Part shown: positions 4,165 through 37,851 of the stretch, one piece after another
Position numbering within the stretch: position 1 is the stretch's first letter
Layout of the letters: each line of letters opens with the position of its first letter
From: a bacterium
Lineage (GTDB): Bacteria; RBG-13-66-14
Length of the DNA: 37,851 bases
Reading direction: 5' to 3'
NCBI GenBank assembly: GCA_035528375.1
Contig: DATKYS010000010.1
Location: 1-37,851, forward strand
The notes under the pieces: generated by a model
What the model saw: the letters and a program-made list of their open reading frames with translations, nothing else
Database searches by the model: none
What the model was told of the DNA's origin: nothing
Program-made: the position numbers and the translations under genes

Positions 4165-5322
4165 TTACGCCGCTCCCTCGGCCCGGACGGTCAGCCACAG
4201 CGGACACGGTTCGGTGAAGCCGCGCAGACGGAACTCGCCCACCGGCTCGAAAAGTTTCCGCTCCTCCTCCCCGAGCTGCTCCAGCACCTGTCGGGTGGCC
4301 AGGATGCGGCCCGAGACGGGCAGGTGGCGGTCCGGCGGGGCGGGGTCCACGCGGTCCTCCTCACGGACGCCGTCAATGCGGAAGGCGCGGTGGACCTCGA
4401 CTCCCAGGGGATCGCCGCCCAGGCCGGTGTTGACCGCCCCCCAGTGCAGGGCCACGCGGACCGAGCCCCGTTCCAGGAACTCCCGGGCCGCCGCGAGCGC
4501 CTGGGGCACGGTGCGGTAGATGCCCAGGAAACCGTCGCCCGTGTTTTTCAAAAAGAGCAGGTCGTCGGCGGAGGGGTGCTCCATGAACTCCCGGTGGAAC
4601 CGGTTCACCTGGTCTATGAAGAGCGTGTCGCCGAAATCCACCAACAGGCTGGTGGACTCCACCAGGTCCAGCACGAGGATGGCCGACTCCGGCGAGGTTT
4701 CCAGGGGCGTTACCAGTTGGTGCCGCTCCAGCTCGTCGCCCAGGAGCCTGACGACGGTGGCGAAGAAGTCGAGTTTCTCCCGGGGCCAGTTGGTGGATCG
4801 CCGGTCGTCGCGGCAGATGTCCAGGGACACGGCCGCGCATATTTCGCCCCCCAGCCGCACCGGACTGACCACGATGGCGGCGATGTTCTGCAGAATCTCC
4901 ATGACCGAGAGCACCGGTCCGGCGATGAACCGGAGCCCCTTCGGCAGGAGCTCCACCGCCGTCTGCCGGGTCCAGAGGTGGACATCGGAGTAGAGCAGCT
5001 TTTCGACGATCTCGACGGGCAGCTTCTGACCGACGGTGGGCTTGACCCCGCGGTCAACCCACTCGACGACGGTGACGTAGACGTTGGCGGTGAGCTCGTT
5101 GTAGCAGGCGCGGCTGACGTCGAAACCCGGCCCCAGGATGTTGACGAAGCGCCGGACGAGCTCGTCCTTGGAGAGGGAACGGTCCTTGAAGGCCCGACTG
5201 AGCTCGGAGAGGACCCACGCGTAGGGCGGCCGACCGTCCGCGAGGACCCCCGGCCCGACCCCCGGGTCCAGCCGGTTTGGTTTCCGGGGGGTCCGTTCAT
5301 GAACTGTGTCGCCGTCATCCAT
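4165..5322 (-). CDS. Class III nucleotide-cyclase-domain protein
   Basis: 385 residues. The start ATG 5322 is 14 bases after the helicase stop; a longer upstream open frame is a shadow of the helicase. Residues 1-130 are of unknown fold; about 130-200 resemble the end of a GAF-like sensor; about 212-380 form the cyclase homology domain. The two metal-binding aspartates are present (Asp219 in VLDLVES, Asp263 in KNTGDGF), as is Lys259 before the second, the position that reads adenine in class III cyclases. The transition-state segment reads VHRAFRI, so the Arg is kept but the usual Asn is His. Catalysis may therefore be altered or lost. It is last in the MglB-MglA-DUF4388-helicase cluster, suggesting cyclic-nucleotide or nucleotide-sensing output. 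Confidence 0.8.
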   Translation of the reverse strand: MDDGDTVHERTPRKPNRLDPGVGPGVLADGRPPYAWVLSELSRAFKDRSLSKDELVRRFVNILGPGFDVSRACYNELTANVYVTVVEWVDRGVKPTVGQKLPVEIVEKLLYSDVHLWTRQTAVELLPKGLRFIAGPVLSVMEILQNIAAIVVSPVRLGGEICAAVSLDICRDDRRSTNWPREKLDFFATVVRLLGDELERHQLVTPLETSPESAILVLDLVESTSLLVDFGDTLFIDQVNRFHREFMEHPSADDLLFLKNTGDGFLGIYRTVPQALAAAREFLERGSVRVALHWGAVNTGLGGDPLGVEVHRAFRIDGVREEDRVDPAPPDRHLPVSGRILATRQVLEQLGEEERKLFEPVGEFRLRGFTEPCPLWLTVRAEGAA

Positions 5323-5336
5323 GATTGGTGGAAGGC

Positions 5337-7520
5337 TCACATCTTCTGCAGATTGGCGAACTTGGCGACGAGCTTTTTGATGCCGTGCCGGGCGAACTTG
5401 ACGGTGAGCTTTAGGCTGTCGCCGTCTCCGGCCCGGGAGAGGATGATCCCCCGCCCCCACTTGTCGTGCCAGACCCGGTCCCCGATGGAGTACGCCGGCG
5501 CCGCTTTCTTGGCCTTCTCCCGCTCCTGTTCGTGCTCCACGGCCAGGAGGTCCTGGGAGGTCGCGAACATGGTCAGGGTGTGCACGGAGTGGTCCTCGAG
5601 GAGGCTGACGGGCAGCTCCTTTAAAAACGGGCTGGGCTTGGTCCACACCTTGCGACCCTCGAGGTTGCGCCGCAGCGCCCGCGTGAGGTATACCTTGTAC
5701 CGGGCCCGGGTCAGCCCCACGAAGAAGAGGCGGCGCTCCTCCTCGATGTCATCGTACCTGGAGGAACCCTTGTACTTCAGGGGCAAAAGCCCCTCCTCGA
5801 CGCCGGTGATGAAAACGATGGGGAACTCGAGCCCCTTGGAGGCGTGGAGGGTCAGAAGGGACACGGACCCCGCGGTCTCGTCGAAATCGTCTATGGGGGC
5901 GGCCAGGGAGACCTCCTCGAGGAACTCCTCCAGCATGCCGTCGGGATTCGACGAGATGAAATCGTGGGCCGTGTCCACGAACTCCTCCACGTTCTCCAGC
6001 CGGGAAACGGCGTCGCCCGCCTTCTGCAGCCAGCTCGTGTAATCCACGCGCTCCAGGAGCATCTCCAGCAGCTTGTCCACCGGCTCGCGAATGGTCGTCA
6101 GCTCGTCGAGGAGGTCCATCAGCCGGACGACGGCGCGCCGGGCCCGGGGGGGGATCAGCTCCTCGTCCACGCAGCGGCGGACGGTGTCGAAGAGTGCGGT
6201 GGGGTTCCGCTCTATCTCCTCCATCACGCGATCCACGGAAATCTTCCCCACCCCGCGGCTGGGGACGTTGATGATCCGGCGGAAGCTGAGGATGTCGTTG
6301 GGGTTGACGATGAGCCGCAGGTAGGCCAGGAGGTCCCGTATCTCTCGGCGGTCGTAGAACCGGGAGCCGGCGATGGTCGTGTACGGGATGGACCGCTTGC
6401 GCAGGGCGTCCTCCAGGACCCGGCTCTGGTCGTTGGTGCGGTAGAGGATGGCGTAGTCGGCGTAGTTCGACTTCTTCTCCGTGTTGACCGATCGGAAAAT
6501 TTCCGTGGCGATCCAGCCCGACTCGTCGTACTCGTCGGACCCGGCGTACACGCTTATCTTCTCGCCCTCCTCGCCCCGGGTCCACAGGTCCCTGTCGAGG
6601 CCGAGCGGTCGCGGGTTGTGGGAGATGAGGGAGTTGGCCGCCTTGAGGATGGTCTGGGTCGAGCGGTAGTTCTCCAGGAGGGTGATGATGCGGACGTTTT
6701 CGAAATCCTCGGTGACGCGCAGGATGTTCGTCGGATCGGCGCCGCGCCAGCGGTAGATGCTCTGGTCCGGGTCGCCGACGACGGCGAGCCCGTCGCTCCC
6801 CGAGGCCAGGGCCCGGATGAGCTCGTGCTGGGCCGCGTTGGTGTCCTGGTACTCGTCCACCAGGATGTGCTTGAACCGGCTCTGCCAGCGCCGGAGGACC
6901 TCCGGGAATTCCCGGAAGAGCTTCACCGTGACCAGGATCAGATCGGCGTAATCCAGGGCCCCCGAATCGAGGAGCTCCGTCTGGTAGCTTTCGTAGAAGG
7001 CCTTTATCCGCTTCTCGTGGGCCGTGTGTGCCGGGAATTCCTCGGGCTCCACCAGGTGGTGCTTGGCCCGCTCGATGACCGTCAGGACGTCGGTGGGTTT
7101 CAGCGCGCCGGGCCCCTCGCCCGGTCCGACCAGCCGCTTGAGGATGGCCAACTGGTCGGCCTGGGTGGCGATGACGAACTCGTTCTCCCGTCCGGGGATG
7201 TGGCCGATTTCTCGCCGCAGGAGGCGGGCGCAGAAGGCGTGGAAGGTGTGAACCCATACCCGGGCGGCAGTCGCGGAGCCGGCGCGCTCACCTATGAGCG
7301 AATCCACCCGGACCCGCATCTCGGTCGCCGCCTTGTTGGTAAACGTCACCGCCAGAATCTCGTCGGGCTTGGCGTCGCCCTGGTCAATGAGATGGGCCAC
7401 CCGGGTGGTAACCACCCTGGTCTTCCCGCTCCCCGCCCCGGCCAGCACCAGAAACGGCGACCCACGGTGAGTCACCGCCTGGAGCTGGATCGGGTTCAGG
7501 AAGATGAGCAGGTTGTCCAT
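5337..7520 (-). CDS. pcrA: ATP-dependent DNA helicase PcrA/UvrD, superfamily 1
   Basis: 727 residues from ATG 7520; a GTG immediately before it is an equal alternative. This 3'-to-5' DNA helicase acts in repair and in removing proteins from DNA. All SF1A motifs are present in order: the N-terminal LNPIQLQAV, Walker A GAGSGKT, DEYQDTN, GDPDQSIYRWRGA, LLENYRST, LLTLHASKGLEFPIVFI and ERRLFFVGLTRAR. The C-terminal IGDRVWHDKWGRGIIL is the Tudor-like domain that distinguishes PcrA/UvrD from Rep. The length matches the family. It sits between a DUF4388 gene and a cyclase-domain gene, an unusual place for a housekeeping helicase. Confidence 0.96.
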   Translation of the reverse strand: MDNLLIFLNPIQLQAVTHRGSPFLVLAGAGSGKTRVVTTRVAHLIDQGDAKPDEILAVTFTNKAATEMRVRVDSLIGERAGSATAARVWVHTFHAFCARLLRREIGHIPGRENEFVIATQADQLAILKRLVGPGEGPGALKPTDVLTVIERAKHHLVEPEEFPAHTAHEKRIKAFYESYQTELLDSGALDYADLILVTVKLFREFPEVLRRWQSRFKHILVDEYQDTNAAQHELIRALASGSDGLAVVGDPDQSIYRWRGADPTNILRVTEDFENVRIITLLENYRSTQTILKAANSLISHNPRPLGLDRDLWTRGEEGEKISVYAGSDEYDESGWIATEIFRSVNTEKKSNYADYAILYRTNDQSRVLEDALRKRSIPYTTIAGSRFYDRREIRDLLAYLRLIVNPNDILSFRRIINVPSRGVGKISVDRVMEEIERNPTALFDTVRRCVDEELIPPRARRAVVRLMDLLDELTTIREPVDKLLEMLLERVDYTSWLQKAGDAVSRLENVEEFVDTAHDFISSNPDGMLEEFLEEVSLAAPIDDFDETAGSVSLLTLHASKGLEFPIVFITGVEEGLLPLKYKGSSRYDDIEEERRLFFVGLTRARYKVYLTRALRRNLEGRKVWTKPSPFLKELPVSLLEDHSVHTLTMFATSQDLLAVEHEQEREKAKKAAPAYSIGDRVWHDKWGRGIILSRAGDGDSLKLTVKFARHGIKKLVAKFANLQKM

Positions 7521-24855: not shown

Positions 24856-27069
24856 ATGAGAACGTTAGTCATCATTGCAACGCTCCTGTCCGCCGCCGCC
24901 TCGGCCGTCCCCGAAATCGCCGCGGTGCGGGTGGAAGAGGGTCCGGAGCTCGACGGGCTTTTCGACGACCCATGCTGGAGCGCGGCCCGGTGGCACGAGG
25001 GCTTCGTCCAGCGCGACCCCGACCCCGGCGCGCCCTCCACGGAGATGACGCGCGTGGCCTTCGTATACGACTCGATGACCCTCTACGTCGCCTTCGACTG
25101 CCGCGACTCCGACCCTGCGGGATTGCAGAGCCACCTGGCGCGTCGAGACTCAGGGATAACCGCGGACGACAACGTGGACGTCTATTTCTCGCCCACCGGC
25201 GACGGGCGGCTCCTGTACTACTTCAGCACCAACCCCGCCGGCGTGAAGCTGGACCAGCTCTACACCAACCGCGCCCAGTGGGCCACGGGGCAGTGGGACG
25301 GACACTGGGACGTGGCCACGGCGCAGACCGCCTACGGCTGGAGCGCCGAGTTCGCCGTGCCCTTCGCCAACTTCCAGTTCGACGCGTCCGCGGGGAACGA
25401 CTGGATTTTCAACGCCGGCCGCGTCGTCCGCCGCAAGCACGAGGAGACCTACCTGGCCGAGGTGCCCTACACCGCCAACATGTTCTACACGGAGTACGGC
25501 GCCCGGCTGACCGGCATCGAGGGCGTGAGCCAGAGCCTGGGTCTGGAGCTCGTGCCCTATGTCAAGGGCGATTACCGCAACTACCCGGAGCTTACCGGTG
25601 AGGACCGCGACCAGCTCAAGCCACTGGCCGGCCTCGTGCTGGACTTCGACGTGAGCCGCAACCTGAACCTGGCGGCCACGGCCTTCCCCGACTTCGCCGA
25701 GATAGACCTGGACCCGGACCAGTACGTAGTCGGCCGGGATCAGGTGTACGTCGCCGAGACGCGCCCCTTCTTCCTGGAGAACTCCAACTTCTTCGCCGCC
25801 TCGTACTTCACCATGTTCTACTCCCGGCGCATCGGCAAACGGCTCTACGACTCCAACGGCCTGTACGAGGACTCGGACATCATAGGCGGCGGACGGCTGA
25901 CCGGCAAGGCGGACCGCTTAGGCTACGGCGCCTTCTACGCCCACACAGACGAGGCGGTCACCGACCTGGCCGCCGAACCGGCGAGCGACTGGGGCGTGGC
26001 CCGGCTGACCTACGACGTCACCCCGGGCGGCTACGTGGGACTGATCGGCTCCGGGCGCCTGGCCCAGGGCGTGGAAACGCCGGACGGGACGGCGCTGCCG
26101 GCCTACGACTACGCGGCCTACGCGGCGGACTTCGATCTCTACTTCGGCGAGACCGGGGAGTGGAACGTGAAGGGCATGGGGGTGGCGGACTACGACTCGC
26201 GCAACCCCGGGGGGACGATCGAGGACCAGCACGCCGCCGGTTTCGAGGTGGACTACACCGGCGAGGTCGTGGACACCAGCCTGGATTACGACCAGTTTAC
26301 GGAAAACTTCAACCTGGACGAGACCGGGTACATGTGGACCAGCGGGCTTTCGCTCCGCCACTTCAACTACCACCTGCGGTTCCGCTTCAACTTCGGCTCC
26401 GAGGCGGCGCTCCGCAGCTTCTGGGTCACCGGTTACGCCAACGTCCACCGCGACTGGGACTGGGAGCCGGCGATGGACCAGTTCGAGATCGAGCTCTCCA
26501 GCATGCTCCAGAGCGGCTGGCTCATGGGCCTGGGCGGGAGTTACGGCCACGACTGGCTCCTGGACCCTGAAAACCCCGTGGAGTACTACTACGGGTACTA
26601 CTGGGTCAACACCCCCTGGTCCGGGATGTTCACCGGCAACGCCTTCGCCGGCTACGGCAGCATGCCCGACTACACCACCGGCGCCGTGGGCGACCTGCTC
26701 ATGGGCAGCCTGGAGGGCTCCTTCCGCCCCGTCTCCGCCTTGCAACTGACTGGTAGTGTCGAGTACTACGACTGGACTTTCCCCGCCGACGCCACGGATT
26801 ACTGGGGGGGGCCGGTCGAGGACTACGACATCGTCATCTGGCTGGGGTCGCTGAACTACCTCTTCACCCGGGAGCTGTACCTGCGCCTGTTCGCCCAGGG
26901 CTCGACCCAGAACGACCTGTACGCCTTCCGCGGCCTCGTGGGCTGGGAGTACCTGCCCGACTCGAACATCTACCTGGCCTACGAGCAGTGGCGCGACGAC
27001 ACCGGGGGGGACTTCCGGATGGTCAACCAGGGGGTCTTCCTCAAGGCCGAGTATTACCTGCAGTTCTGA
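24856..27069 (+). CDS. CBM9-like plus DUF5916 outer-membrane barrel protein
   Basis: 737 residues. A signal peptide (MRTLVIIATLLSAAASAVPE) directs export. Residues ~25-200 resemble the carbohydrate-binding CBM9-like fold: LDGLFDDPCWSAA, then FVYDSMTLYVAFDCRDSDP, and DDNVDVYFSPTGDG. From ~215 on it matches DUF5916: NLAATAFPDFAEIDLDPDQY, then AETRPFFLENSNFF and YSRRIGKRL. The rest alternates aromatic beta strands, as in an outer-membrane barrel, and ends in YYLQF, a typical C-terminal aromatic insertion signal. It is probably an outer-membrane protein of unknown ligand. CGGAG lies nine bases before the ATG. Confidence 0.9.
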   Translation: MRTLVIIATLLSAAASAVPEIAAVRVEEGPELDGLFDDPCWSAARWHEGFVQRDPDPGAPSTEMTRVAFVYDSMTLYVAFDCRDSDPAGLQSHLARRDSGITADDNVDVYFSPTGDGRLLYYFSTNPAGVKLDQLYTNRAQWATGQWDGHWDVATAQTAYGWSAEFAVPFANFQFDASAGNDWIFNAGRVVRRKHEETYLAEVPYTANMFYTEYGARLTGIEGVSQSLGLELVPYVKGDYRNYPELTGEDRDQLKPLAGLVLDFDVSRNLNLAATAFPDFAEIDLDPDQYVVGRDQVYVAETRPFFLENSNFFAASYFTMFYSRRIGKRLYDSNGLYEDSDIIGGGRLTGKADRLGYGAFYAHTDEAVTDLAAEPASDWGVARLTYDVTPGGYVGLIGSGRLAQGVETPDGTALPAYDYAAYAADFDLYFGETGEWNVKGMGVADYDSRNPGGTIEDQHAAGFEVDYTGEVVDTSLDYDQFTENFNLDETGYMWTSGLSLRHFNYHLRFRFNFGSEAALRSFWVTGYANVHRDWDWEPAMDQFEIELSSMLQSGWLMGLGGSYGHDWLLDPENPVEYYYGYYWVNTPWSGMFTGNAFAGYGSMPDYTTGAVGDLLMGSLEGSFRPVSALQLTGSVEYYDWTFPADATDYWGGPVEDYDIVIWLGSLNYLFTRELYLRLFAQGSTQNDLYAFRGLVGWEYLPDSNIYLAYEQWRDDTGGDFRMVNQGVFLKAEYYLQF

Positions 27070-30532: not shown

Positions 30533-31690
30533 CTACTCCATCCGCTCGTCGTAGTCCTCGACGTAGGCGGCAATCCCCCGGTAAATAGCCTCGGCCACCC
30601 GCCGGTAGCCCTCCGAATTTGTGTAGAGGTCCGCCTCGCGCTTCGCGGTCATGAAGTAGCTCTCGACGAGGATGGCCGGCATGTGCGTCCCGCGCAGAAC
30701 GGCGAAGTTGTCCTGCTTCACCCCGCGGTCCTTCAGGCCCAGCTCGCCGAGGAGCTCGGCGTGGACGCAGTTGGCCAGCCGGGCCGACTCCTCGAGGACG
30801 AGGGTCTGGTACGCGTCGGAGAGGATGAACTCCAGGGCGCTCTTGGTCACCCGGTCCAGGTCGGGGTCGGACTGGAAGTCGGCGTTCTCCAGCATGGCGG
30901 CCGCCCGGGTCGTGGTCGTCTGGCCGCTGATCAGATAGAAGGTCTCGGTCCCGCTGGCCGACGAGGACCCCCCGTTCAGGTGCAGGCTGACGAAAAGGTC
31001 GGCCCCGATCTCGTTGGCCATCAGGCAGCGCCCCTTGAGGCCCACCTCGTAGTCCCCGGTGCGGGTCAGGACCACCTCCACCCCCAGTTTGTCCTCCAGC
31101 AGCTTCTTTAAAATCTTGGCCTGCTCGTAGACGGCGTACTTCTCCGAAACGCGCTCGTCGTAGGTGGCGGTGCCGGTGTAGCGCGGGCCGCCGTGACCCG
31201 GGTCGAGCACTATCAGCTTTATCTCCCCCGGGGGTCGGGTGAAGTCGGCCGTGTCGGAGACGCCGCCCTTGGGGGTGACGTCCACGCAGACCTGGAAGGG
31301 GTTGCGCTTTGCGTAGGCGCGGTAGGTGTAGGAGCCGGAGACTAGCTGGAGGATTAAAAGGGCGTCTTTACCGTCGGCGACGACCTTGGCCTCGGTCACG
31401 GCGCCCCTGCCCGGACGGGTGAGCGTGGCGGACGGCGCGGCCCCCGTGATCCGCACCTTGAGGGTGTTTCCATCGGCGGTGAGGGAGAACTCGGCCTCCG
31501 ACTCCAGGCCCACCGAGACCCAGGTCCCCGCGTCGGTGGTGCCCAGGTTCAGGCTTTGGGCCCGGTTGGCCCACACCGGCGCCGCCGGAAGGAGGAGCAG
31601 GAGAAGTGTTACGGCACTGAGGGCATATCTGCGCCCGCAGGGTTTCTGCGCCCGAAGGGAAAATCTGTGACCGAAGGCGAACCCGCGCAA
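30533..31690 (-). CDS. N-acetylmuramoyl-L-alanine amidase (Amidase_3), copy 2
   Basis: 385 residues. Start TTG 31690 follows GGGAGAGGC; the long basic N-terminus precedes a hydrophobic export segment (VTLLLLLLPAAPVWA). An AMIN-like domain (about 42-140; SLNLGTTDAGTWVSVGLES, FQVCVDVTP) is followed by the zinc amidase: His156 in VLDPGHGG, Glu173 in VSEKY, His in FVSLHLNG and Glu in ILVESYFMT. All catalytic positions are present. Its leader contains the ACAAGGGGTTTAA palindrome shared with the cyclophilin gene. A possible -10 (TATACT, 31764-31769, minus) lies upstream. It heads the amidase 2 - amidase 1 - lipoprotein operon. Confidence 0.93.
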   Translation of the reverse strand: MRGFAFGHRFSLRAQKPCGRRYALSAVTLLLLLLPAAPVWANRAQSLNLGTTDAGTWVSVGLESEAEFSLTADGNTLKVRITGAAPSATLTRPGRGAVTEAKVVADGKDALLILQLVSGSYTYRAYAKRNPFQVCVDVTPKGGVSDTADFTRPPGEIKLIVLDPGHGGPRYTGTATYDERVSEKYAVYEQAKILKKLLEDKLGVEVVLTRTGDYEVGLKGRCLMANEIGADLFVSLHLNGGSSSASGTETFYLISGQTTTTRAAAMLENADFQSDPDLDRVTKSALEFILSDAYQTLVLEESARLANCVHAELLGELGLKDRGVKQDNFAVLRGTHMPAILVESYFMTAKREADLYTNSEGYRRVAEAIYRGIAAYVEDYDERME

Positions 31691-32974: not shown

Positions 32975-33793
32975 GTGAGCATCGAATACGTGGTGGCGCG
33001 CCCCTGCGCGGTCAAGGATTCCGTCGGCGGCGATGAAGCCTTCCTCCGCGCCTGCACCTGGCGCCTCATGGCCCGGACCGCCAAACGGGAGGCCCGGAAA
33101 AAGAACCTCCGCTTCGAGGAGGTGAAACTCACCCACCGCATCGTCACCCTGGACGGGGTGGACGAGGTGGTGGAGCCGCTGTCGAACCTCATCGAGGAGG
33201 CGGCCCGGTTCGAGGAGAAAACCGGCCCCTGCGCCGACTGCCCGGCCTGCGTCCTGGACGACACGGTGGGGTGCTTCGGCACTATAGGCTACCCCGTCAC
33301 CGCCGAGGCCGAGCAGTGGCTCTACGACAGGATTACCGGCGAAGTGGAGCCCTCGGTCGCCCGGGGCTGGCGGGACTTTTGGAAGAACGGCCGGGCGGAC
33401 CCGTCGCAAATCGCGCTCCTGCGCAGCAAGGGCGACGACTTCCTCGAGGGGACGAGCGCCTGGGGCCTCACCGCGGCCTCCGGCGGTCGCCCCCTCACCC
33501 TCAACGCCAACGAGATCCTCGCCGCCCTCTTCGCCGCCGGGAGCCTCGCTCCCGCCGACGGCCTGATGCTCCTGGGACTCCTGGGGGCCCTGGACCCCGA
33601 CGTGGACCCCGAGGACGAGGAACGGCCCGTGATCGGCGTGTCCGAGACGGACAACGGGGAAACCGAGGAGAAGCTGGCCTTCGACATCTACCCCGAGCCC
33701 TACGACGACCCGAGCACCTGCGACCTGAAGGCGTACCTCTTCGCGCTTTTCTTCTCTGCCGCCCTGGGGGTGGAGCTGCACGTGAGCCTGTAG
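32975..33793 (+). CDS. Cys-cluster protein of unknown function
   Basis: 272 residues, cytoplasmic (no signal). GTG 32975 follows GGAGG at four bases. Cys86, Cys89, Cys92 and Cys100 (CADCPACVLDDTVGC) form a compact cluster suited to zinc or iron-sulfur binding, followed by FGTIGYPVTAEAEQWLYDRI. The C-terminal third has a hydrophobic helix (ALFAAGSLAPADGLMLLGLL), an acidic linker and an Ala/Phe-rich end (YLFALFFSAALGVELHVSL). I do not recognise the family; it may be a conserved hypothetical. It lies between the repeat protein and the four-paralogue cluster on the same strand, 52 bases before the latter. Confidence 0.75.
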   Translation: MSIEYVVARPCAVKDSVGGDEAFLRACTWRLMARTAKREARKKNLRFEEVKLTHRIVTLDGVDEVVEPLSNLIEEAARFEEKTGPCADCPACVLDDTVGCFGTIGYPVTAEAEQWLYDRITGEVEPSVARGWRDFWKNGRADPSQIALLRSKGDDFLEGTSAWGLTAASGGRPLTLNANEILAALFAAGSLAPADGLMLLGLLGALDPDVDPEDEERPVIGVSETDNGETEEKLAFDIYPEPYDDPSTCDLKAYLFALFFSAALGVELHVSL

Positions 33794-33845: not shown

Positions 33846-34889
33846 ATGATAAGAATGAGCGTAATTCCGACTCTGACGCTACTCCTCCTCCTGCCGACCC
33901 TGCTTCCGCCCGCTACGGCGCAGGACGCGGAGGTAACCAGCGAGACCGTCGGGCGTGTGGTGTACGTTCACGGGGTTTTAGAAACTTCCGAGGGCCTTCC
34001 GGTAACCGGGGCAACCGTCGAATTCGTCGGCACGGAGAAATTTTTCGAGACCGATGTGAATGGCTCATTCGGCCGTGCCTCTCTGTATAAGGGCTCAGCG
34101 ACCATCCGCTGCACCATCGGCGAAGACACCGTCGAACTCGAAACCCCTCCCCTCATCCCGACAACCGACGAGCACGTAATCCGCTTCCACCTCGGGCGCG
34201 ACTACGCACTCCATCTTTACACCATCGGAGAGGATCCCTCCGCTGTAGGCAAGCCCAACGTCTACCTCTACCCCGAAGCCGAGGCCGACGTCAACGTCTG
34301 GCTCTCCTTCGTCGGCGGGGGCCGCATGACCGCCTCGGAGCCCGAATACATCGAGGGTTGGGACGTCACCGTCACCCCCGAGGGGAAAATAACGGCCTAC
34401 GAGCCCGTCTACTTCCTGGACCCGGAAACGGGGGAACACTGGCCCGTCCCGGCGCGGGGAGAGCCCGCGGGCTCCTACGACTACCTCTTCTACGAGGGGG
34501 AGGTCGCGGGGCCGGGGCAGCTCGACTACGGCTGGGTGGTGGGCCGGGAGGACGTGGAGAAATTCTTCCGGGAAAAGCTCGCGGCCTACGGCTTCGCCGG
34601 GAGGGAGATAGAGGATTTCGTGGATTACTGGGCGCCCCGGCTCACCGACTACCCACTCTTCGCCGTCTACCCCCAGGCGGGCGGGGAGTACGAGAAGCTC
34701 GTCTCCATGTCCGTCTTCCCCGCGCCGGACTCCGTCCTGCGGGTGGTGTTCACCGTCCGGGGGCTGTGGGAAAACGCGGAATTGACTCTGACAGAACCGG
34801 CGATTGCGCCCTTCGAACGCGGGGGCTTTACCGTCGTGGAATGGGGCGTCATCCTGAAGGAGAGCGACGCCCGGTTTTACCTGCACTAA
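33846..34889 (+). CDS. KPNVYLYPE-domain exported protein, paralogue 1
   Basis: 347 residues. ATG 33846 has GGAG six bases upstream. Signal peptide ~1-25 (PTLTLLLLLPTLLPPATA). Residues ~40-120 are a beta-sandwich of carboxypeptidase-regulatory type (GVLETSEGLPVTGATVEFVG, TDVNGSFGRASLYKGSATIR). The shared C-terminal domain spans 136-337: KPNVYLYPE, SEPEYIEGWDVTVTPEGKI, YLFYEGEV, YGWVVGREDVEKFFREKL, EIEDFVDYWAPRLTDYPLF and the end motif GGFTVVEWGVIL. It is first of four paralogues read in the same direction with 12-18-base gaps, so an operon. I recall similar unannotated domains in other bacteria; function unknown. Confidence 0.85.
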   Translation: MIRMSVIPTLTLLLLLPTLLPPATAQDAEVTSETVGRVVYVHGVLETSEGLPVTGATVEFVGTEKFFETDVNGSFGRASLYKGSATIRCTIGEDTVELETPPLIPTTDEHVIRFHLGRDYALHLYTIGEDPSAVGKPNVYLYPEAEADVNVWLSFVGGGRMTASEPEYIEGWDVTVTPEGKITAYEPVYFLDPETGEHWPVPARGEPAGSYDYLFYEGEVAGPGQLDYGWVVGREDVEKFFREKLAAYGFAGREIEDFVDYWAPRLTDYPLFAVYPQAGGEYEKLVSMSVFPAPDSVLRVVFTVRGLWENAELTLTEPAIAPFERGGFTVVEWGVILKESDARFYLH

Positions 34890-34907
34890 TCAACCAATGG
34901 AGGGGAG

Positions 34908-36065
34908 ATGCAAACCGTAAAAACCCCGTGTGCCGTATTTATCCTCCTGGCGCTCACCGCGACCGTCCTGGCCCAGGAGGAGGAGGATTACGAGTTCAGC
35001 GACCCCCTGTCCAGGATGACCGTGATCGTGGACACCCTGCGCATCCGTGACCTGCCGGCCACCGAGGGCTCGGAGGTCGTCGGGATGCTCCACCTGGGCG
35101 ACACGGTGCCGTACGCGGAGATGAATGACGACTGGGCCCGGATCAAGGCCCCCGACGGCACCGTGGGTTGGGCCTGCATCGTCCTGGGTGGGGAGACCTT
35201 CATGGTCCAGGACATCTACATCTTCTTCACCGGGACCCTGACCGACGCCGCGGGCGACCCGGTGGCAGGCGCGGTGATCGAGCTGGTGGGTACCGGCACG
35301 AACTACGTAACGGACGAGGAGGGCCGGTTCGACGATTACGAGGTCCCGAGGGGGACCTGGGGCCTGCGGGTGACCGTGGGCGAACGTTCCGCGCTGCTGG
35401 AAAACACCATCACCCTCGAGGACGAGTATTACGAAAAAACCCTCACCGTTAATCTGGACACCGAGTACCGGCTGACCATCACCCTCGAGGAGGCTGAAGG
35501 CATCGCCAAGCCCAACATCTACATCTACCCAATCGAGGAGACCGAGGTGCGGGTGAGGCTCGGCTTTCCGGCGGGCGGCGGTATAACCGTCTCCGACCCG
35601 CCCTACGGCGAAGGCTGGACGGTCACCGTCACCCCCGAGGGAATCATTGACGGCGAACGCACGTTTCTATTCTACGAGGCCCGGAGCGGAGGGAGCGTCC
35701 AGCGCGAGGAGGGTTGGGTGGTGCCCCGGGAGGACCTGGAGGCCTTTTTCCGGGAAAATTTAAGAGCCACGGGTTTCTACGAGCCTGAGATCGAGGATTT
35801 CGCGGAGTTCTGGGTGCCGCGGCTGGACGACCACCCCTACTTCGCCCTCTACCCCCAGTACGACCCCATCTACGACGGAATGGTCGGCCTCGATGTGGAT
35901 CCGGACCCCTGGACCGTCATCCGGCTGGCCTACGTCGTCGTCGGGCTGGAGGAGTATTTCGACCTGATGCCGGCGGCGATCCCGGCCTACGAAATCGGCG
36001 GCTTCACCGTCCACGAGTGGGGGGTCATCCTCAGCCCCGGTGACATGGACGCCTACCTCTACTAG
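34908..36065 (+). CDS. KPNVYLYPE-domain exported protein with SH3 domain, paralogue 2
   Basis: 385 residues. GGAGGGGAG precedes the ATG. Signal peptide ~1-22 (FILLALTATVLAQ). An SH3-like domain (about 38-93; VDTLRIRDLPATEGSEVVGM, DDWARIKAPDGTVGWACIV) probably binds the wall. A carboxypeptidase-regulatory-type sandwich follows (about 105-198; GTLTDAAGDPVAGAVIELVG, TDEEGRFDDYEVPRGTW). The shared domain spans ~201-376: KPNIYIYP, YGEGWTVTVTPEGII, FLFYEARSG, EGWVVPREDLEAFFRENLRA, IEDFAEFWVPRLDDHPYF and GGFTVHEWGVIL. It differs from its neighbours mainly in the added SH3 module. Confidence 0.85.
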   Translation: MQTVKTPCAVFILLALTATVLAQEEEDYEFSDPLSRMTVIVDTLRIRDLPATEGSEVVGMLHLGDTVPYAEMNDDWARIKAPDGTVGWACIVLGGETFMVQDIYIFFTGTLTDAAGDPVAGAVIELVGTGTNYVTDEEGRFDDYEVPRGTWGLRVTVGERSALLENTITLEDEYYEKTLTVNLDTEYRLTITLEEAEGIAKPNIYIYPIEETEVRVRLGFPAGGGITVSDPPYGEGWTVTVTPEGIIDGERTFLFYEARSGGSVQREEGWVVPREDLEAFFRENLRATGFYEPEIEDFAEFWVPRLDDHPYFALYPQYDPIYDGMVGLDVDPDPWTVIRLAYVVVGLEEYFDLMPAAIPAYEIGGFTVHEWGVILSPGDMDAYLY

Positions 36066-36077
36066 AAGGGGGAGCGA

Positions 36078-37043
36078 ATGCGAACGACCACCCTGATTTG
36101 CCTGGGCATAACCGCGTTTCCGGCCGTCCCAACACTCTGCGCGGCGGCCTCCGATACGGCGACCATGACCGGTATCGTCCAGAACCTCGACGGCGACACC
36201 ATCCCGGACGCTTCGGTCGAGCTCTTCCAGGCGAGGGAAACGGAGGAGGAGGAACGAAGCATAGAACCGAGACCGGAGGACCGTCCCTGGCTCTTCACGG
36301 ACGAGCCGCTCTACCGGGCGACGACCGACGAGGAGGGCCGGTACTCGATCGAGGACATCCTGCCTGGCACCTACGACGTCGTCTGCGAGAACGACTACTA
36401 CGAGCCGACTTACGTCCTGGGCATCGCCGTCACCGCCGGGGAGAAGCTGACCTACGATTTCATCCTGGAGTACATGATGGAAGTGGAGAAGCCCAACCTC
36501 TACCTCTATCCCGAGGAGGCCACCGAGGTCACGGTGCGGTTGGGATTCCCCGCGGGCGGTGGTGTCACGATTTCGGAACCGACTTACGGCGACGGCTGGA
36601 CGGTGGGCGTCGCGCCCGACGGGAAAATCAACGGCGAGTACGGTCACCTGTTCTACGAGGCCCAGGTGCCGCCGGACTGGCAATTCGACCGGGGCTGGGT
36701 CGTCCAACAGCGGCAGTTGGAGGAGTTTTTTAACGAAAACCTCGCCGCGGGCGGCTTCAACGAGCGCGAGACCGCCGACTTCATCGAGTACTGGGTCCCC
36801 CGCCTGGACGATAAGGCCTTCTACGTCATCTACCCCCAGTACGCGCGGGACATCGAGCCCCTGATAACACTTACCGTCGAGCCGGAGCCGGCCGAAATCC
36901 TCCGCCTGTACTACGTCATCTCCGGCGTGGACTCTGTGGACCGCTACGTCCCCGAGCCGGATATCCCGAGCTTCCATCGCCACGGCTTCACGGTCTGCGA
37001 GTGGGGTGTCGTCCTGATGGACGACGAGGAAATCGTCCATTAG
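36078..37043 (+). CDS. KPNVYLYPE-domain exported protein, paralogue 3
   Basis: 321 residues. AAGGGGGAG precedes the ATG. Signal peptide ~1-22 (LICLGITAFPAVPTLCAA). The regulatory-type sandwich spans ~28-128, with GIVQNLDGDTIPDASVELFQ, an inserted acidic loop (ETEEEERSIEPRPED) and TTDEEGRYSIEDILPGTYDV. The shared domain spans 138-314: KPNLYLYPEEATEVTVRLGF, PTYGDGWTVGVAPDGKI, RGWVVQQRQLEEFFNENLAA, ETADFIEYWVPRLDDKAFYV and HGFTVCEWGVVL. Gaps of 12 and 17 bases to its neighbours indicate one transcript. Confidence 0.85.
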   Translation: MRTTTLICLGITAFPAVPTLCAAASDTATMTGIVQNLDGDTIPDASVELFQARETEEEERSIEPRPEDRPWLFTDEPLYRATTDEEGRYSIEDILPGTYDVVCENDYYEPTYVLGIAVTAGEKLTYDFILEYMMEVEKPNLYLYPEEATEVTVRLGFPAGGGVTISEPTYGDGWTVGVAPDGKINGEYGHLFYEAQVPPDWQFDRGWVVQQRQLEEFFNENLAAGGFNERETADFIEYWVPRLDDKAFYVIYPQYARDIEPLITLTVEPEPAEILRLYYVISGVDSVDRYVPEPDIPSFHRHGFTVCEWGVVLMDDEEIVH

Positions 37044-37060
37044 CCGAAGGGAGGGCTCCC

Positions 37061-37851
37061 ATGCGAACCGAGCTACGTCTCCGGCAAATCGCGGCTTTCG
37101 TCCTTCTCCCCCTGGTCCTTCTCGCCGGGTGCAAGGAGGAGACCGGTACCCTGATCGGGGTCGTCACCGACGACTACGGCGCGCCGGTCGCCGGAGCGGA
37201 GATCGTCCTGGACGGCACGGACTACGAGGCGAAGACGGACTCCGACGGCCGCTACGCCATCCCCGACATCGAGCCGGGCTCTTACACCGTGACCGGCAAC
37301 GCGCCGGATTACGATTTCGACCTCCTGCACGACGTGGAGATAGGCAAAGGGGAGACCGTGGAGCTCGACCTGGCCGCCTATTCCAAGGACTACCTGGAAC
37401 CGGTGCGCAAGCCCAACGTCTACCTCTACCCGCCACAGACCACCGACGCGACGGTCCGGCTGAGCTTCCCGAAAGGCGGCGGGGTGACCGTCTCCGAGCC
37501 TCTCTACCTGGACGGCTGGAAGGTGGAGGCCACGCCCGAGGGCTTTTTGACCAACTACGAGTATCTGACCCGCGACGTGCCGGACGACCCCGATGCCACC
37601 ATGTACACCGTGGAGCCCGTCCCTGTGGGCGGTTACCCATACCTCTTCTACGAGGCCGACGTCCCCGTGGAGTGGCAGCACGAATGGGGTTGGCTCATAG
37701 AGGGCGCCGACCTGCGCGACTTTTTCACTAAAAACCTCCACGACTACGGCTTCACCGACCGCGAGATCAAAGATTTCCTGGACTATTGGGAGCCGCGGCT
37801 CACCGCCGCCCAGTATGCCGTCTTCCCCCAACTGGCGGCCGACATCGAGCC
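37061..37851 (+). CDS. KPNVYLYPE-domain lipoprotein, paralogue 4 (cut by right edge)
   Basis: 263 codons are inside the window; the end is missing. AAGGGAGGG precedes the ATG. Lipobox LAGC (Cys24) follows IAAFVLLPLVLL, so unlike its three neighbours it is lipid-anchored. A compact regulatory-type sandwich spans ~28-108 (GTLIGVVTDDYGAPVAGAEI, TDSDGRYAIPDIEPGSYTVT). The shared domain starts at 117 (KPNVYLYPPQTTDATVRLSF) and continues through YLDGWKVEATPEGFL, YLFYEADVPVEWQ, WGWLIEGADLRDFFTKNL and DREIKDFLDYWEPRL before the edge. The cluster may continue beyond the window. Confidence 0.85.
   Translation, partial: MRTELRLRQIAAFVLLPLVLLAGCKEETGTLIGVVTDDYGAPVAGAEIVLDGTDYEAKTDSDGRYAIPDIEPGSYTVTGNAPDYDFDLLHDVEIGKGETVELDLAAYSKDYLEPVRKPNVYLYPPQTTDATVRLSFPKGGGVTVSEPLYLDGWKVEATPEGFLTNYEYLTRDVPDDPDATMYTVEPVPVGGYPYLFYEADVPVEWQHEWGWLIEGADLRDFFTKNLHDYGFTDREIKDFLDYWEPRLTAAQYAVFPQLAADIE

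Follow-up and report, generated by a model that had tools for sequence, protein, structure and literature searches.

A tandem array of exported proteins sharing a C-terminal domain without a curated family in a Coatesbacteria genome

The end of a contig in a 2.63-Mb Coatesbacteria genome encodes a tandem array of proteins, continued by a fifth copy on a second contig, which begin with a signal-peptide-like sequence or a lipobox and end in a common domain. The CarboxypepD_reg and SH3_3 modules of these proteins are already known; new is the shared C-terminal domain, for which neither a curated family nor a PDB fold could be found. From its sequence context the domain would be a hitherto undescribed module for binding or catalysis outside the cytoplasm, presented on variable N-terminal adaptors. 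The window, that is the whole stretch of DNA analysed here, is the entire contig C10 (37,851 bases), and among named relatives Candidatus Coatesbacteria bacterium RBG_13_66_14 comes closest (83% identity). The following features were identified; positions are those of the window unless contig C140 of the same genome is named.

33846..34889, + strand: copy 1, 347 aa, with signal-peptide-like start, weak CarboxypepD_reg-like module (residues 41-90, below the cut-off) and shared C-terminal domain
34239..34886, + strand: shared C-terminal domain of copy 1, by alignment and profile match
34908..36065, + strand: copy 2, 385 aa, with signal-peptide-like start, SH3_3 (43-89), CarboxypepD_reg (108-172) and shared C-terminal domain
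35496..36062, + strand: shared C-terminal domain of copy 2, modelled with AlphaFold
36078..37043, + strand: copy 3, 321 aa, with signal-peptide-like start, CarboxypepD_reg (29-130) and shared C-terminal domain
36477..37040, + strand: shared C-terminal domain of copy 3, by alignment and profile match
37061..37851, + strand: copy 4, truncated where the contig stops, with lipobox LLAGC, CarboxypepD_reg and the first part of the shared domain
37397..37849, + strand: shared C-terminal domain of copy 4, part within the window, by profile match
37711..37851, no strand: overlap with the end of contig C140, 141 identical bases (assembly overlap)
C140:50640-51599, - strand: copy 5, 319 aa, on contig C140

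The four genes of the window are separated by 18, 12 and 17 nt (copies 1-2, 2-3 and 3-4, from the translation of the window), and a purine-rich ribosome-binding site lies 5' of each of them. An earlier note, made from the letters of the DNA, had described four consecutive genes 12-18 bases apart with good ribosome binding sites, and its frames, starts and gaps are confirmed. The same holds for the C-terminal domain which it had seen in all four products. This domain comprises 180-225 residues, the domains of copies 2-4 can be aligned with that of copy 1 end to end from KPNxYxYP to EWGV with 43-51% identity, and a profile built from the four domains scores each copy with E values of 4e-61 to 3e-100, which excludes chance as the reason for the likeness. 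Some of the sequence landmarks, so far described as fixed, are looser than that: copy 2 reads KPNIYIYP, copy 1 LFYEG and copy 4 FPQ. Copy 5 reads FFAHTL at the landmark FF-(E/K)(N/K)L.

That the N-terminal modules vary was also correctly recognised. The Pfam family CarboxypepD_reg (PF13620, cut-off 32.3 bits) has members in copies 2, 3 and 4 (33.1, 46.8 and 59.5 bits), while copy 1 falls well short of the cut-off with 18.9 bits (E 0.002). A bacterial SH3 domain (SH3_3, PF08239, cut-off 27 bits) is found at residues 43-89 of copy 2 with 29.8 bits, and in none of the other window copies. The lipobox LLAGC is present in copy 4, the remaining copies have signal-peptide-like starts. However, PF13620 covers the N-terminal module only and leaves the shared C-terminal domain outside, and the SH3 domain is unrelated to the latter.

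Upstream of the array lies a gene for a 272-aa protein (32975-33793, +) without Pfam or NCBIfam match, which adjoins copy 1 in the genome G010 too. The window further encodes a protein of 737 aa that matches DUF5916 in part (24856-27069, +) and an N-acetylmuramoyl-L-alanine amidase (Amidase_3; 30533-31690, -).

The last 141 bases of the window are an exact repeat, in reverse, of the end of contig C140. An exact overlap of that length is typically left behind where a k-mer assembler could not resolve a fork, and judged from the sequences the join of C10 and C140 is very likely real. Read through the overlap, copy 4 has its complete length of 316 aa, copy 5 starts 14 nt past the stop codon of copy 4, and guaA begins about 100 nt after copy 5. 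The cluster does therefore run past position 37851, as the earlier note had asked, and its count of four copies has to be corrected to five, the fifth lying across the contig overlap.

The shared domain is present in all seven genomes of the family that were examined, with two to six matches each; seven genomes that belong to different families of the same phylum have none. The tree of the domains indicates that the individual copies group with their counterparts in related genomes: copy 1 with G009 and G010, copies 2 and 3 each with G009, G010 and G011. Copy 4 has its counterpart in G009, copy 5 in G010, and the second unit of G008 joins copy 2 at a greater distance. Since individual copies have orthologues in congeners, the duplications are older than these species and were kept. 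The dN/dS values of the orthologue pairs range from 0.27 to 0.60 in a simple Nei-Gojobori count, in which the upstream neighbour gene gives 0.33. In most of these pairs the protein changes more slowly in the domain than in the N-terminal part, as in copy 2 compared with G009, where dN is 0.09 in the domain and 0.55 in the N-terminal part. As read from these counts, the orthologues of individual copies are maintained under purifying selection. In G008, which belongs to another genus, the domain units are fused in one open frame of at least 836 aa (L009/L098, G008:C227). The gene at the fourth position of the G010 array (L096, reverse-strand frame 5110-6090) is highly divergent, with RPNLYLYP and LYYE, and none of the five copies of the window genome is clearly orthologous to it.

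The earlier note knew of no assigned function for the domain and had proposed to search a profile of the four domains in protein and domain databases. That search assigned it to no characterised family (Pfam, NCBIfam, PHROGs, PADLOC, PDB). Within the shared domain of the window copies there is no significant match to Pfam or NCBIfam, and 60 homologues scanned singly against these two collections have no family in common for the domain. A sequence-profile search against the PDB chains gave implausible partial matches, the best with E 0.026 for a profile of 4 rows and 0.22 for one of 69 rows. PHROGs and PADLOC contain no match for the window domains; a phage or anti-phage defence protein was rejected as a candidate on that ground.

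Structure prediction, likewise proposed before, was carried out with AlphaFold for the domain of copy 2 (pLDDT 95.7, pTM 0.90) and for a divergent member from Flavonifractor (pLDDT 94.2, pTM 0.89), the latter with a different, partly overlapping alignment. Both models have the same order of strands and helices, and according to them the two divergent members share one fold. With a threshold of E 0.001 or a TM-score above 0.5, Foldseek found no match to the two models in the PDB; the best E values were 0.053 and 0.33, and all PDB TM-scores listed are 0.20 or below by query length. The fold as modelled is beta-rich with two central helices, has no PDB match and is in that sense novel relative to solved structures. 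The viral structure library gave one convincing match, the protein A0A3G4ZNZ8 of the giant virus Terrestrivirus (E 3.5e-11, probability 1.00), with a TM-score of 0.72 by query length and 18% identity. This is the only structural relative found in the PDB and viral libraries, but it is itself a viral, uncharacterised protein of 406 aa. A literature search on the motif strings and on the giant-virus protein revealed nothing relevant.

The 79 loci obtained from a scan of one genome per species are spread over many phyla, including Planctomycetota, Bacteroidota, Cloacimonadota, Marinimicrobia, Spirochaetes, Deltaproteobacteria and Clostridia, and one of them lies in a Micrarchaeota MAG. The seed of 69 sequences was gathered by KPN-type patterns, the later profile surveys made no use of such patterns. 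In these surveys, each of which includes the genome at its centre and among whose matches a few are fragments, the domain is found in 52 of 295 genomes from the order of Flavonifractor (18%, the highest value), 23 of 196 from the order of Clostridium thailandense, 16 of 193 from the class of a deltaproteobacterial MAG, 13 of 295 from the order of Mariniphaga and 2 of 294 from a planctomycete phylum. Similar proteins of the KPVIYLYP type may also occur in fungi and protists. Viral contigs scanned with the KPN pattern gave no confirmed match. An unannotated record of a human faecal phage (MT835506.1:4419-4952, -) contains a relative of the domain with 41% identity to the Flavonifractor lipoprotein L064.

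At one locus of another class (L243, G233:C19:25000-36000) four genes with the domain lie close together, so that tandem clustering is not unique to Coatesbacteria. At four loci in clostridial genomes (L144-L147) short pieces of the domain are interrupted by stop codons; these are probably decayed copies. A named protein that ends in the shared domain is the BspA family leucine-rich repeat surface protein WP_013483720.1, encoded on plasmid pRUMAL02 of Ruminococcus albus 7, whose C-terminus is 31% identical to copy 2 and 52% to L064; however, its public name covers the leucine-rich repeats and not the shared domain.

The domain ends the protein in all 211 homologues whose 3' end is visible, with at most 21 residues (median 3) beyond it. 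A signal-like hydrophobic start is present in 177 of the 192 homologues with a visible 5' end, and 87 of these 177 also have a lipobox, both counted by a simple hydrophobicity rule and not by a trained predictor. The N-terminal parts reach from nearly nothing up to long regions with varied modules (CarboxypepD_reg, PKD, SH3, LRR, ankyrin, GLUG). By their family assignment the partner modules CarboxypepD_reg, PKD, SH3, LRR, ankyrin and collagen are of binding or scaffold type, but generic, and name no ligand. A spirochaete protein of 1120 aa (L060:5308-8670) combines ankyrin-like repeats with three domain units. Stand-alone versions in Bacteroidetes and Clostridia have little beyond signal and domain, as L064, in which the domain starts at residue 24 of 205 aa; the domain would therefore carry its function alone. 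The earlier picture of one exported core domain on different adaptors is thus borne out by 237 sequences; a joint working of the five proteins as one system is conjectural.

The neighbours of the homologues, which had also been proposed as a check, were informative in one clostridial group only. There the domain protein is encoded by the third gene of a conserved operon, often with overlaps of 4 nt (L058, L059, L061, L062, L065, L066, L069, L073, L076, L079, L080, L082, L084, L085; an example is L082:979-6534). The first gene codes for a multi-helix membrane protein (820-965 aa) that contains TPR repeats and in some cases an N-terminal zinc ribbon, the second for a small TPR protein with two helices and about 270 aa in length. 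This operon was not found beside the Coatesbacteria array, and among 64 genes outside the Clostridia no neighbour family occurs with more than two.

Within the 237 sequences two broad types can be distinguished, KPN...LFYE...EWGV, to which the window copies belong, and KPV...LFWE...EWGG, which is seen in many Clostridia and Bacteroidales. In the numbering of the copy 2 domain, E98, W106 and R143 are invariant in all 237, and E174 and W175 are present in every sequence that covers these positions. Y9 and Y11 are nearly invariant, position E61 has Glu in 228 sequences and Asp in another 6, and K5 is replaced by Ala in 16. The invariant Trp, Tyr and acidic residues noticed at the outset do therefore exist; they may form one binding or catalytic site, or may instead be buried structural residues. 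A mean-field coevolution analysis (218 rows, effective number 167) for placing the invariant residues was abandoned, as it was too shallow and its signals were mixed with differences between clades.

We consider it an even call that the array consists of five diverged, maintained exported proteins, in which the terminal domain is the part that recognises or acts on a ligand and the N-terminal modules diversify the targeting. A signal peptide would export each protein, or a lipoprotein anchor would hold it, and the small beta modules (carboxypeptidase-regulatory type, SH3) would space or aim the terminal domain, which would be the working part outside the cytoplasmic membrane. The putative site would involve E61, E98, R143, E174, W41, W106, W175, Y9 and Y11. 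Its ligand would most likely be a polymer of the envelope or the environment, for example a glycan or peptide; of the two modes, binding is slightly more probable than catalysis. As genes were duplicated and their N-terminal parts altered, the places and targets of the common core would have been diversified. With less confidence, and only tentatively, we suggest that the domain is an undescribed fold with a new active or ligand site (E61, E98, R143, E174 and conserved Trp and Tyr), which is common to bacteria, a giant virus and at least one archaeal MAG, and which none of the curated family libraries searched contains.

A specifically catalytic version, in which the domain is a new hydrolase or lyase that acts on polymers of the cell envelope and the invariant Glu and Arg are its active-site groups, is rather doubtful. 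Three nearly or fully invariant carboxylates, together with several Trp and one Arg that never varies, would suit such an enzyme, as would the extracytoplasmic location of the proteins. But neither model resembles any enzyme fold in the PDB by Foldseek, 9 of 237 sequences have Asp, Ser, Thr or Asn in place of E61, and invariance alone cannot separate catalysis from folding. If folding were the reason, the invariant residues would be the structural core of a beta-rich domain in passive structural or adhesive surface proteins. The adhesive or structural partner modules (PKD, LRR, collagen, CarboxypepD_reg) and the fast evolution of the N-terminal parts are consistent with such proteins. This explanation is nevertheless unlikely, as the invariance of charged residues across many phyla exceeds the need of a hydrophobic core and stand-alone lipoproteins are unlike structural fibres.

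Most improbable of the explanations considered is a C-terminal sorting or anchoring device, which would direct or fix passengers to the surface and have no ligand. The type IX secretion C-terminal sorting domains resemble the domain in its C-terminal position and in the variable N-terminal cargo. However, no NCBIfam sorting-signal model matches the domain, and its distribution covers Clostridia and phyla of Gram-negative type alike. Many members have no passenger, just a signal peptide or lipobox and the domain, and many are already anchored as lipoproteins, while some polypeptides contain two or three copies, of which the inner ones are not terminal. The sorting device is weakened because such stand-alone lipoproteins and internal copies exist.

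The Coatesbacteria array is an example of a core domain that was multiplied and re-fitted with different N-terminal modules. A widespread domain without curated family, found in up to about one sixth of the sampled genomes in a gut-associated order, is a clear gap in the protein catalogue, to which the confident model without match to a solved fold adds. The small stand-alone lipoproteins of cultured Clostridia and Bacteroidetes make the domain accessible to tests by structure determination and mutation.
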